The translations under genes were made by a program, and so were the position numbers. The notes under the pieces are model-generated. The model did not search any database, had not been told where the DNA came from, and saw only the letters and a program-made list of their open reading frames with translations. A DNA stretch of 56,859 nucleotides. It comes from Synergistes sp. (GTDB lineage Bacteria; Synergistota; Synergistia; Synergistales; Synergistaceae). Below, piece after piece: positions 42,925 to 46,584 of the stretch (position 1 is the stretch's first letter; each line of letters opens with the position of its first letter). The stretch covers positions 1-56,859 of the forward strand of contig JAFYJW010000047.1 of the NCBI GenBank assembly GCA_017537925.1, in the 5' to 3' direction.

Positions 42925-42953
42925 TTGACAATGCCAAAAAGCGCCGTTAAAAT
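42925..42953 (+). promoter_or_regulatory. promoter of the metY-metX operon
   Basis: Perfect TTGACA (42925-42930), 17 nt, TAAAAT (42948-42953). The predicted start of transcription near 42960 gives a 190-nt leader before metY. The gap 42723-42924 upstream shows no gene. Confidence 0.8.
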
Positions 42954-42977: not shown

Positions 42978-43123
42978 GGAGGAGGCTTTGCACTGTGATT
43001 TACTCATATCCGCTGTTTGTTATGATGATGTGCGCGACCGGCAGAGCCTCTTTGGAACAGTAGACGAAAATTTCGTGAATCTGTACCAACGGGCTCTGCT
43101 TTTTCGCAGGGTCCGTTTTTTTT
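42978..43123 (+). promoter_or_regulatory. methionine leader with alternative attenuator hairpins
   Basis: Four segments of the leader can pair in mutually exclusive ways. Segment 1 (42982-42991) pairs with segment 2 (43041-43050), 10 bp with one wobble, and hides the leader peptide RBS. Segment 2 (43041-43048) pairs perfectly with segment 3 (43092-43099), forming an antiterminator. Segment 3 region (43089-43099) pairs with segment 4 (43106-43116), 11 bp with two wobbles, followed by eight T: a terminator. A small ACGAAA/TTTCGT hairpin (43064-43076) sits in the antiterminator loop. This is the layout of trp/his-type ribosome-mediated attenuation. Confidence 0.78.
42995..43063 (+). CDS. methionine-rich leader peptide (22 residues)
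   Basis: GTG start at 42995, nine bases after a perfect GGAGGAGG RBS (42978-42985). The stop is TAG at 43061. The peptide runs MIYSYPLFVMMMCATG and then six more residues (22 in all), with three consecutive Met codons (ATG ATG ATG, 43022-43030) followed by Cys. The Met codons stand 10 nt before segment 2 of the attenuator, so a ribosome stalled there for lack of charged tRNA-Met would leave segment 2 free to form the antiterminator, while one at the stop codon would mask it. Too short for standard gene calls. Supported by RBS, position and hairpins, not by homology. Confidence 0.72.
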   Translation: MIYSYPLFVMMMCATGRASLEQ

Positions 43124-43149: not shown

Positions 43150-44442
43150 GTGATAAATAAAAGCTGCGGCTTTATGACGAAGGCCCTGCATTCCGGCTGG
43201 GAGTGCGACCCCGCGACAGGCGCTTCCGGCCTGCCGATATACGCCACGTCGGCATACCAGTTCAAAGACAGCGCGCAGGCGGCTGCGCTCTTTAACCTCG
43301 AAGAGGACGGCTTTATCTATTCGCGTCTTGCAAATCCGACAGTCAAGGCATTTGAAGACACGCTGAACTCGCTGGAAGGCGGCGCGGGCGCGATCGCCCT
43401 TGCTTCCGGACAGGCGGCATTTGCCCACCTAATAGCGGCGCTTTGCTCGGCAGGCAGCAACCTTGTCATCTCGCGCAAGGTCTACGGCGGGACGCTTACG
43501 CTGATGCAGAATATATTCTCACGCTTCGGAGTCGAGGCGATACTTGTCGACAGCGACCATCCCTGCCAGGTCGAGCAGGCGATAAACGACGATACCCGCG
43601 GGGTGATAACCGAGATCATCGGGAACCCGATGATGAACGTCGCACCCCTTGAGGCGCTGGCAAGGGCGTCGCACCGTCACGGCGTGCCTCTCATAATAGA
43701 CAACACCTTTGCCACCCCGGCTCTCTGCCGCCCGATCGAATGGGGCGCGGACGCCGTCGTATATTCAACGACAAAATATATTTCCGGAAACGGAAACCTT
43801 ATAGGCGGCGCGTTGGTGGACGGAGGAAACTTCAACTGGAGCGAATACCCGGAAAAATATCCCGGCCTTGCGCTTCCGGACCCTTCATATCACGATATCG
43901 TCTTCGCGGAGAAATACGGACGCGCGGCTCTTGCCGCAAAGCTGCACTGCTCTGTGCTGCGCGATATGGGTGGCTGCCCGTCGGCTTTCGACGCCTATCT
44001 TCTCTGCCTGTCGCTCTTCACTCTCGGGCTCAGGATGAAGCGACACAGCGAAAACGGGCTTGCGGTGGCGAAATTCTTAGAGAAGCATCCTCAGGTGGAA
44101 TGGGTCAGCTATCCGGGGCTTGAAAGCCATCCGCAGAACGATATGGCGAAAGTCTACTTGAAAGACGGCTGCGGAGGGATGATGGCGTTCGGCGTCAAAG
44201 GCGGCGTCGAAGCCGGGCGCAAACTTGTGGATTCCCTTTCCCTTATAGGACATATGGCGAACCTCGGACAGACGCGCACGCTGATAATTCACCCGGCAAG
44301 CACGACGCACGGCCAGCTCACTGCCGAACAGCGCGCAAAGGCCGGTCTTTCCGACGGGCTTCTGCGCCTTTCGGTGGGCCTTGAAGACGCGGATGACATA
44401 ATCGCAGACCTCGAGCAGGCGCTTTCCGCGGCCGGAAAATAA
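43150..44442 (+). CDS. metY: O-acetylhomoserine sulfhydrylase (Cys/Met PLP enzyme)
   Basis: A 430-residue PLP enzyme of the Cys/Met metabolism family. The N-terminal region IYATSAYQFKDSAQAAALF, the FGRxxNPT-like FIYSRLANPTVKAFE and the PLP lysine in YSTTKYISG (Lys ~208) are typical. Length and the insertion pattern fit MetY, which makes homocysteine from O-acetylhomoserine and sulfide, more than a 390-residue gamma-lyase. metX immediately downstream, which supplies O-acetylhomoserine, supports this. The GTG at 43150 follows GGGGAGGAG; upstream in-frame codons overlap the leader. Confidence 0.88.
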   Translation: MINKSCGFMTKALHSGWECDPATGASGLPIYATSAYQFKDSAQAAALFNLEEDGFIYSRLANPTVKAFEDTLNSLEGGAGAIALASGQAAFAHLIAALCSAGSNLVISRKVYGGTLTLMQNIFSRFGVEAILVDSDHPCQVEQAINDDTRGVITEIIGNPMMNVAPLEALARASHRHGVPLIIDNTFATPALCRPIEWGADAVVYSTTKYISGNGNLIGGALVDGGNFNWSEYPEKYPGLALPDPSYHDIVFAEKYGRAALAAKLHCSVLRDMGGCPSAFDAYLLCLSLFTLGLRMKRHSENGLAVAKFLEKHPQVEWVSYPGLESHPQNDMAKVYLKDGCGGMMAFGVKGGVEAGRKLVDSLSLIGHMANLGQTRTLIIHPASTTHGQLTAEQRAKAGLSDGLLRLSVGLEDADDIIADLEQALSAAGK

Positions 44443-44457
44443 GATCGGGTGCCGGGT

Positions 44458-45537
44458 ATGAAAGAGGAGCTATCTTCCGTAATACTGAAAGACATAACGC
44501 TTCCCTCCGGCGCGCATTTTGACACGCTGACGCAGGCTTACGCCAAATACGGGGAGATCTCGGCGGACGGCGGCAATGTCATCCTCGTGTGCCACGCGCT
44601 GACCGGGAGCCACAGGCTTGCGGGCGAAAAAATAGAAGGGCTTCCTGAGCCGTGGTGGGAACCGATAGTCGGCGACGGGCACGCGGTTGACACACACAAA
44701 TACTGCGTCATCTGCTTCAACAACCTGGCGAGCCCCTACGGCAGCACTTCCCCGCTTTCGGTAAACCCCGCGGACGGCCGCCGCTGGGCGATGAGATTCC
44801 CGATCCTTTCGCCGCGCGACACTGCATATGCGCAGAGGGCGGCGCTTACCGCGATGGGCATAAAAACGCTGTATGCGGTCATAGGCGGCTCTCTTGGCGG
44901 CATGATAGCGCTTGAGCACGCTGTATCTTTCCCCGAAACAACGCCGCGCTGCGCTCTTATCGCAGCGCCGGACCGCCTCTACCCGCAGGCGATAGCCTTC
45001 AACTCGGTGCAGCGTCAGAGCATAATGGGAGACCCGGAATGGAAGAACGGCGATTACGAAGGCGCGGGTCCGGCAAACGGGCTTGCGGCCGCCAGGATGC
45101 TCGCGATGATAACGTACAGAAGCGAACAGTCCTTCACGAACCGCTATATGCGCGAAGTAGCGCGCGGCACGACAAGCGACTGGAGCGGCGAATTCCAGGT
45201 TGAAAGCTACCTGCACCACCACGGCGAAGCGATAGTAAAGCGTTTCGACGCGAACTGCTATCTGTACCTCACCCGTATGATGGATCTGCACGATATAGGC
45301 GCAGGGCGCGGCGGGCTTGACGCCGCATGGAAGAATTTCAGCGGCGGCAGGCTTTTGGGGCTTGGCATTTCGAGCGACATGCTCTTCCCGAACTGGCAGG
45401 TCGAAGAAGCCGTGCGGGCGGCCGCCAAAAACGGCGTCTGCGCCTATTACGAAGAGCTTGAGAGCGATAACGGACATGACTCCTTCCTGATCGACTTCGA
45501 CCAGGTGGATGACTACCTGCGCACCTTCCTGCAGTGA
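44458..45537 (+). CDS. metX: homoserine O-acetyltransferase
   Basis: A 359-residue alpha/beta-hydrolase-fold enzyme that acetylates homoserine with acetyl-CoA. Motifs: the N-terminal VLVCHALTGSHRL region, the nucleophile elbow GGSLGGM (Ser ~145), an acidic Asp in ISSDMLFP near residue 306 and the catalytic His in NGHDSFL near residue 339. It lies 15 nt after metY. Together they give the direct sulfhydrylation route to homocysteine. The RBS is weak; a GTG three codons upstream is an alternative start. Confidence 0.94.
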   Translation: MKEELSSVILKDITLPSGAHFDTLTQAYAKYGEISADGGNVILVCHALTGSHRLAGEKIEGLPEPWWEPIVGDGHAVDTHKYCVICFNNLASPYGSTSPLSVNPADGRRWAMRFPILSPRDTAYAQRAALTAMGIKTLYAVIGGSLGGMIALEHAVSFPETTPRCALIAAPDRLYPQAIAFNSVQRQSIMGDPEWKNGDYEGAGPANGLAAARMLAMITYRSEQSFTNRYMREVARGTTSDWSGEFQVESYLHHHGEAIVKRFDANCYLYLTRMMDLHDIGAGRGGLDAAWKNFSGGRLLGLGISSDMLFPNWQVEEAVRAAAKNGVCAYYEELESDNGHDSFLIDFDQVDDYLRTFLQ

Positions 45538-45627: not shown

Positions 45628-46584
45628 ATGGATACGTATGAATTGAAGGGCGATAAAATATGCCGGGTTCTGCAGATCTATTCAAAACTGATGGAGGGCT
45701 ATACGGTAAATAAGGCCGAAGAAGCCCAAAAATACGGCGTGAACGAGAGAAGCATACAGCGGGATATCGATGATATCAGAAATTATCTTGACAACGATGT
45801 GGAACGGACGGGAATCATAAACACGGTCGTCTATGACCGCGCGAGCAGGGGATACAGGCTCGAGACCCTCTACCAGACACGCCTTAAAAACAGCGAAGTG
45901 CTGGCGGTGTGCAAAATACTGCTGGACAGCAGGGCCTTCCTGAAGTCGGAAATGAAAGGGATGCTTGACAGACTGATTGCCTGCTGCGTGCCGAAGAGCA
46001 ATCAGAAGCTTGTCAGAAGTCTGATAAACAATGAACTCTTTCATTATGTCGAACTGAGACATAAGTCGCATTTTTTGGAAAAAATGTGGGACATCGGTCT
46101 TGCGATAAAAGAATCGCGTTACATAGAGATAAAGTATCAGAGAGTGAAAGATAAGAAGCTGGTCGCCAGAAGGGTCAAACCCGCGGCGATCATGTTCTCG
46201 GAATACTACTTCTACCTTGCCGCTTTTATCGATGATGAAGAGGTAAAGAAAGGCTTTGACGTCATCGGAGATTCTTTCCCGACGATCTATCGCATCGACA
46301 GGATAAAGAAATATGAGATATCGGATGAAAGATTCGCCATACCGTACAGCAGCAGATTTGAAGAGGGAGAGTTCCGTAAAAGAATACAGTTCATGTATGG
46401 CGGCAAGCTGCAGAAAGTCCTTTTTAAATTCTACGGCGCGGATCTGGATTCCATACTTGACCGACTGCCGACCGCGGTCGTTCTGGATGAGAATGACGGA
46501 GTATATACGATTCGCGCGGAGGTCTTCGGAAAAGGCATTGAAATGTGGCTTAGAAGCCAAGGGGATCTGGTTGAAGTCATATGA
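45628..46584 (+). CDS. WYL-domain transcriptional regulator
   Basis: A 318-residue regulator: an N-terminal HTH with VNERSIQRDIDDIRNYL (residues ~37-53, recognition helix), a linker, a WYL domain (about 150-235) and a C-terminal WCX-like extension. WYL proteins bind nucleotides, nucleic acids or other ligands and often control defence or stress genes. The RBS ACGGAGGG precedes the ATG. It lies at the left edge of the accessory region, before the first GTPase gene, and may control it. Confidence 0.88.
   Translation: MDTYELKGDKICRVLQIYSKLMEGYTVNKAEEAQKYGVNERSIQRDIDDIRNYLDNDVERTGIINTVVYDRASRGYRLETLYQTRLKNSEVLAVCKILLDSRAFLKSEMKGMLDRLIACCVPKSNQKLVRSLINNELFHYVELRHKSHFLEKMWDIGLAIKESRYIEIKYQRVKDKKLVARRVKPAAIMFSEYYFYLAAFIDDEEVKKGFDVIGDSFPTIYRIDRIKKYEISDERFAIPYSSRFEEGEFRKRIQFMYGGKLQKVLFKFYGADLDSILDRLPTAVVLDENDGVYTIRAEVFGKGIEMWLRSQGDLVEVI

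Follow-up and report, generated by a model that had tools for sequence, protein, structure and literature searches.

What kind of switch lies in front of the metY and metX genes of this Synergistes sp., and what does it sense? To our knowledge, methionine genes are controlled by SAM riboswitches, T-boxes or MetJ, and not by classical attenuation. Methionine also starts every protein, which makes it an awkward signal for a leader peptide. The window analysed here (the whole 56,859-nucleotide stretch, contig G000:C61; the genome, G000, has 1.98 Mb) carries a leader that is very probably a ribosome-mediated transcription attenuator sensing charged elongator tRNA-Met. This reading is drawn from sequence: from the parts of the leader, their conservation, pairings that exclude one another and show compensatory changes, and the position of a Met run relative to the RNA segment (segment 2) that can choose between two partners.

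All of the elements are on the + strand. The genes metY (O-acetylhomoserine sulfhydrylase; 43150..44442) and metX (homoserine O-acetyltransferase; 44449..45537) encode proteins that score above the cut-offs of TIGR01326 and NF001209, respectively. Immediately 3' of metX is a gene for a WYL-domain protein (window 45628-46584, +). Upstream, the promoter proposed in an earlier note on this DNA is present as a predicted sigma-70-type promoter (TTGACA-17-TAAAAT; 42925..42953) with 11/12 consensus matches. It is followed by a short open reading frame with a ribosome binding site (RBS), as in trp-type attenuators; this assignment is made by sequence and position, and the arrangement is kept in relatives. 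The leader ORF (MIYSYPLFVMMMCATGRASLEQ; 42995..43063) has 22 codons, starts with GTG at 42995 rather than ATG, ends with TAG at 43061-43063, and has homologues in relatives. The three ATG codons followed by TGC that the same note placed at 43022..43033 (Met-Met-Met, then Cys) are indeed there in the sequence, as is the RBS (GGAGGAGG; 42979-42986), which lies inside segment 1 (42979..42991).

Four RNA segments could form three exclusive pairings, and these were found where the note had put them, with compensatory changes in relatives. Segment 1 could pair with segment 2 (43041..43053, core 43041-43048) in a duplex of -21.5 kcal/mol, which has covariation support. Folds and covariation indicate that segment 2 has either segment 1 or segment 3 (43088..43099, from the terminator scan and folding) as its partner, and the exclusive 2:3 antiterminator typical of trp-type systems likewise has covariation support. 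Segment 4 (43106-43117) closes an intrinsic terminator with segment 3, past the leader ORF, and runs into eight T (43116-43123; the whole element spans 43106..43123). The scan reports 12 pairs for this terminator, and compensatory changes accompany it. A small hairpin (43052..43089) also appears in the folds, inside the antiterminator and between its two arms; it overlaps the leader stop codon, and similar sequence is found in L002, L003, L005-L007 and L010.

The main argument that the leader is not a chance feature is its conservation in relatives. Within the window, the leader folds at -61.2 kcal/mol, versus -44.4 for shuffled sequences (z -4.6), and among the 40 small ORFs with a good RBS on both strands the metYX leader ORF is the only one with a Met-Met. 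A 484-amino-acid ORF that runs from a TTG at 42988 through the leader into metY was considered and rejected as a chance opening of the metY frame, given that metY in the relatives starts 3' of the terminator. A search of the window leader against Rfam gave nothing above threshold, and a lax threshold gave matches at chance level only. The SAM-I riboswitch (RF00162) and the T-box (RF00230) are both absent from the window leader, and a riboswitch and T-box search of the whole window found none.

The switch probably works as follows. When methionine is ample, the ribosome would reach the stop codon and cover part of segment 2, and with segment 2 covered the 3:4 terminator would halt RNA polymerase ahead of metYX. 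When charged tRNA-Met is scarce, the ribosome would stall when a Met codon enters the A site, its leading edge just short of segment 2, leaving segment 2 free to pair with the emerging segment 3, so that transcription would go on. If the leader is not translated, 1:2 may form and hide the leader RBS, and 3:4 would be left to terminate. Methionine shortage also lowers initiator fMet-tRNA and could in this way reduce initiation at the leader, which counts against the mechanism.

Relatives of the locus were collected through MetY similarity; the nearest named one is Synergistes sp. Tb.RUG.71, with 96% MetY identity. The earlier note had said that a lack of conserved Met codons or hairpins in relatives, or a transcript start downstream of the leader ORF, would refute its reading. 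The Met run is conserved at the same metY site in 12 relatives: L002 (VMYSYPLFVMMMCANCRASLEQ), L003 (MINSYPLCVMMMCAKSRAPGEQ), L004 (VVTVIISKRSMMIMCNGRAFPNG), L005 (VRNFSYMQMCMMMCDSGRATLRQ), L006 (VGSFSYMRMCMMMCDSGRASLRQ), L007 (LKKFLLKQMYMMMCDNGRAFLRQ), L010 (MKYSMPTDMMMCDICGATLKQ), L015 (MKLFTSMYDMMMCNLNGSFLMR), L016 (MILSTYLYNMMMCNSNGSFLMR), L017 (MQYNKFMFNMMMCMEKSGSSLD), L116 (VNKSVIFGNCIMMYAVDGSFLMK) and L012 (MAIYWTFWDIMMICHAECS, read directly from the sequence); L001 is the window itself. All three pairings are kept with compensatory changes, and direct reading predicts a promoter like that of the window upstream of the leader ORF in the relatives as well. Near L003, from a congener (G001), there is also a T-box (L117:1247-1508, -); it lies on the strand opposite metY and probably belongs to a neighbouring gene.

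Among the metY leaders, pairs changed on both sides number 10 in 1:2 and 3:4 and 3 in 2:3. For 1:2 and 3:4 together, 81.9% is paired versus 73.5% after shuffling and at most 53% after sliding; for 2:3 the values are 84.6%, 74.7% and at most 51%. The covariation score was reached by 0/500 shuffles both for 1:2 plus 3:4 and for 2:3, and it exceeds all slid controls. A2, with a slightly different leader set, gave a similar outcome. For instance, segment 2 is GCAGAGCC in the window versus ACGGGTCC in L015, and segments 1 and 3 change to match. RNAalifold recovered little from the leader alignments except the terminator, as expected because the pairings are exclusive; the named structures were therefore counted instead.

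Five other metY upstream regions (L008, L009, L011, L013 and L014) keep a terminator, and the leader ORF in them is missing, frameshifted or shorter. L011 is a frameshifted remnant in which the ATG run is kept, one base out of frame relative to L012; in the other four the leader is lost. Given such frameshifted or deleted leaders in related genera, the window leader might itself be a decayed remnant, once functional and now a weak constitutive terminator. We consider this very improbable, because the window and two congeners have all parts intact and an unchanged Met run.

Whether a working attenuator could operate here depends on where the ribosome would stall. In our model the ribosome was set codon by codon, its leading edge lying 12 nt past the first base of the A-site codon; folding was confined to the RNA 3' of the ribosome and stopped where segment 3 ends. 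With the third Met codon of the window leader in the A site, the ribosome edge falls at 43040, and segment 2 starts at 43041. Across 86 Met-run leaders, segment 3 pairs with upstream RNA at a mean of about 0.73-0.78 for A-site positions from 12 codons before the last Met codon up to that codon. Modelled 2:3 pairing is 0.77 when the A site holds the last Met codon and falls to 0.70, 0.53, 0.34 and 0.26 over the next four codons. For the 82 distinct leaders it drops from 0.765 at the last Met to 0.256 four codons on (Wilcoxon p 1.3e-14, a test that ignores relatedness). The claim that the spacing fits classical attenuation thus holds up in the modelled scan: a stall at the Met codons would leave segment 2 free and an advanced ribosome would cover it, which is the sensor codon placement of trp-type attenuators.

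The comparison with mononucleotide-shuffled controls is less sharp for single leaders. Mean 2:3 pairing is 0.54 in the controls versus 0.77 in the real leaders, but for only 38/86 individual leaders do no more than 2 of 40 shuffles reach the real value, because segment 3 is G+C-rich. In the model, the positional drop is the stronger test. When the stalled window leader is folded at equilibrium with segment 4 out, the minimum free energy fold retains the terminator (-30.6 kcal/mol). By this modelling, 2:3 is favoured only kinetically in the stalled state of the window, and the antiterminator probably wins by forming first, because 2:3 and 3:4 are close in energy.

The window switch has many counterparts in its phylum. 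A covariance model built from metY leaders (R1) gave weaker matches away from metY, which on inspection include terminator-bearing Met-run leaders at metQ (for example MQIKQIVMMMDMMMCGMSGSSPEMVGA) and metN (for example MFKINIRTNNMMMCMYAQGSSPDLAGA), with the identities of example genes checked with NCBIfam and Pfam. A second model (R2), built from these metQ and metN leaders, has matches at E 0.05 in 141/185 Synergistota genomes and 58/62 genera, although weak R2 matches include attenuators for other amino acids and not all are Met leaders. Met-run attenuators, mostly with MMMC, precede metN, metQ, metX and another type of metY in many Synergistota families, and the genome studied here has three of them, at metYX, metN (MKFSDRYPAYGMMMCASADGSSCDLPDA) and metQ (MKKAYGNRAFIMCMMMRGSGGPTPRRFGV). 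Upstream of its metN leader, on the opposite strand, lies a cobalamin riboswitch (49 bits, L170:1064-1172, +, contig G000:C47). Both models contain the Met run, so their matches are biased toward it; they contain no genes, and the inference from leader to gene is for that reason unbiased by them. All inspected Met-run leaders with an identifiable gene precede metY types, metX, metN, metQ or one unnamed protein family. Before metY, metX, metN and metQ this is the run of end-product codons known from trp-type leaders. Outside Synergistota, R2 had no match at E 1e-4 in 398 genomes sampled from the phylum to which G186 (a Peptococcaceae genome) belongs, in a search with tighter filters, and one partial match only in 16 genomes of other groups; neither search had a positive control. 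The idea that the window operon is under methionine attenuation is therefore well supported by this sequence comparison, and its scope was, if anything, set too narrowly: the same control seems to apply to metN, metQ, metX and the other metY type.

Among 82 distinct Met leaders, 76 have a run of three Met and six have a run of two. In 65 of the 82, Cys follows directly past the last Met run, and many leaders have further Cys codons, which would suit a leader that senses cysteine, or cysteine plus methionine, as a measure of general sulfur amino acid supply. We find this unlikely. Cys is swapped for Arg, Ile, Tyr, Ser, Pro or Gln in the remaining 17 (all 82 were chosen by their Met run), a Cys run without a Met run occurs in none of 112 leaders, and the downstream genes serve methionine making and uptake. 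Moreover, a ribosome stalled at the Cys codon of the window leader would have its edge at about 43043 and would already cover the first bases of segment 2. Cysteine may nonetheless add to the methionine signal via the conserved Cys codon past the Met run.

The leaders of other amino acid genes show how far the sensor codons can be exchanged. In the same genome, a leader with Ile, Val and Leu codons (MRRNGYISDISGIVVVVRIISSGLSEVAGA; L226, G000:C44:24302-24472, +) precedes ilvN, the acetolactate synthase small subunit, and one with six consecutive Ile codons (MLRSLNGNNIIIIIINAAPPRRIGD; L223, G000:C4:11483-11642, +) precedes the gamma subunit of a 2-oxoacid:ferredoxin oxidoreductase. A six-Ile leader also precedes this subunit at L215; these leaders hint at a reductive-carboxylation route to isoleucine. 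Thr plus Met codons are found before homoserine dehydrogenase (VFQLHNNNNVTITTMTTCGTPPGVAGD) and, as TMTMTS, before aspartate kinase (L203, L206 and L250), as expected at the branch point of both pathways. A weaker, Leu-containing leader precedes leuC. The sensor codons thus track the pathway of the downstream gene, which fits the prediction for a sensor of tRNA charging, and in the Ile, Val and Leu leaders, too, modelled pairing drops in a similar way near the end of the codon run.

These leaders bear on two further readings. Any stall up to the Met run would, in the model, leave segment 2 free, and the switch might for that reason read a general slowing or absence of translation rather than methionine. 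This is quite improbable, because the same architecture occurs with Ile, Val, Leu or Thr plus Met codons before matching pathway genes, making the codons the part that changes with the gene. Less probable still is a nascent-chain arrest peptide that stalls on a bound metabolite such as methionine or SAM, for which one could cite the recurrence of MMMC and the similar C-terminal stretch of the metN and metQ leaders. The residues N-terminal to the Met run vary widely, the C-terminal stretch is accounted for by the pairing of segment 2 and recurs in the Ile, Val and Leu leaders, and stalling while the metabolite is plentiful would turn the genes on at the wrong time. Sensing of charged tRNA-Met remains our preferred reading, and the metYX switch is one of at least three Met switches in its genome, within a Synergistota-wide set of attenuators with exchangeable codons.

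The metY tree bears on the history of the regulator. Every sequence with a Met leader falls in one clade of 19 rows (99/99), which includes sequences with a decayed leader or none. In most rows outside it, including four of the same family, metY is preceded by a SAM-I riboswitch. This suggests that, within one family, the regulator shifted from a metabolite sensor (SAM) to a sensor of tRNA-Met charging, with losses later. At some metQ genes both occur in series, a SAM-I riboswitch and then a complete Met leader (L153, L164, L211 and L212); in L153, L164 and L211 the riboswitch comes with a terminator of its own, and a second promoter is not visible between it and the Met leader. The only SAM-I match in the genome studied here (59 bits; G000:C77:8570-8685, -; L112:1571-1686) precedes a hypothetical protein of at most 130 amino acids and no recognised methionine gene.

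Taken together, we think it probable that the Synergistota met regulon (metY, metX, metN and metQ) is under an undescribed class of Met-leader attenuators, part of a modular phylum-wide set, and that at some metQ genes the SAM-I riboswitch and the Met leader act as series gates. If true, such serial gates would read SAM and charged tRNA-Met separately. An attenuator that reads Met would also make it possible to test directly how charging during starvation differs between the elongator and initiator forms of tRNA-Met.

In this little-studied phylum, the codons of the modular leaders may help to assign functions to genes, and the unnamed family is a case in point. Its members, of about 420-430 amino acids (L247:273-1535, L252:274-1563 and L260:275-1528, in G170, G049 and G089), have relatives in 46/185 Synergistota genomes. 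Tested members had no Pfam or NCBIfam match, and one had no sequence match in the PDB. Met or Met/Thr attenuator leaders precede the family in several genomes, and in G095 (L303) the gene adjoins homoserine dehydrogenase. We regard it as a candidate protein of the methionine or threonine pathway.

In the open-access literature, to which the search was confined, no account of a methionine attenuator in Synergistota was found, and the one earlier report of a Met leader is a Streptomyces metN candidate, unproven and with no terminator. The main text of a survey of Thermovirga lienii, which belongs to Synergistota, says nothing of methionine (PMC6429828), and no met RNA elements were found in a survey of Actinobacteria (PMC1262725). 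The Streptomyces candidate, the metL leader proposed before metNIQ in Streptomyces lividans, resembles the present leaders as a proposed Met-containing peptide before a methionine transporter operon (PMC8079986). However, metL (MSTTSDRTPATEATTTPGARCMCRRMCAF) has no Met codon run, its transcript is leaderless, and a typical Rho-independent terminator is absent according to the authors (PMC8079986). The uORFC-8-2 motif before cysS in Rhodobacterales is alike in its tandem codons of one sulfur amino acid and proposed ribosome-mediated attenuation; it differs in having cysteine codons, a tRNA synthetase gene and an alphaproteobacterial host, and the likeness is one of description (PMC8632094).

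The SAM-I riboswitch (S box, RF00162) precedes metY and metQ in related Synergistota and is likewise expected to terminate transcription prematurely, but its aptamer senses SAM with no need of translation, and it is absent at the window metY. Classical ribosome-mediated attenuation is known, and relative to the literature searched it is the apparent methionine specificity and the phylum-wide regulon that are new. The closest likeness is to the trp, his, leu, ilv, thr and phe leaders of enterobacteria, which share a short ORF with a run of end-product codons, a 1:2 protector, a 2:3 antiterminator and a 3:4 terminator with a U tract, all before pathway genes. Unlike these, the window type would sense methionine and belongs to the phylum Synergistota. 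It also differs from trpL of E. coli, in which the Trp codons lie inside segment 1: in the window, segment 1 holds the leader RBS, upstream of the sensor codons.
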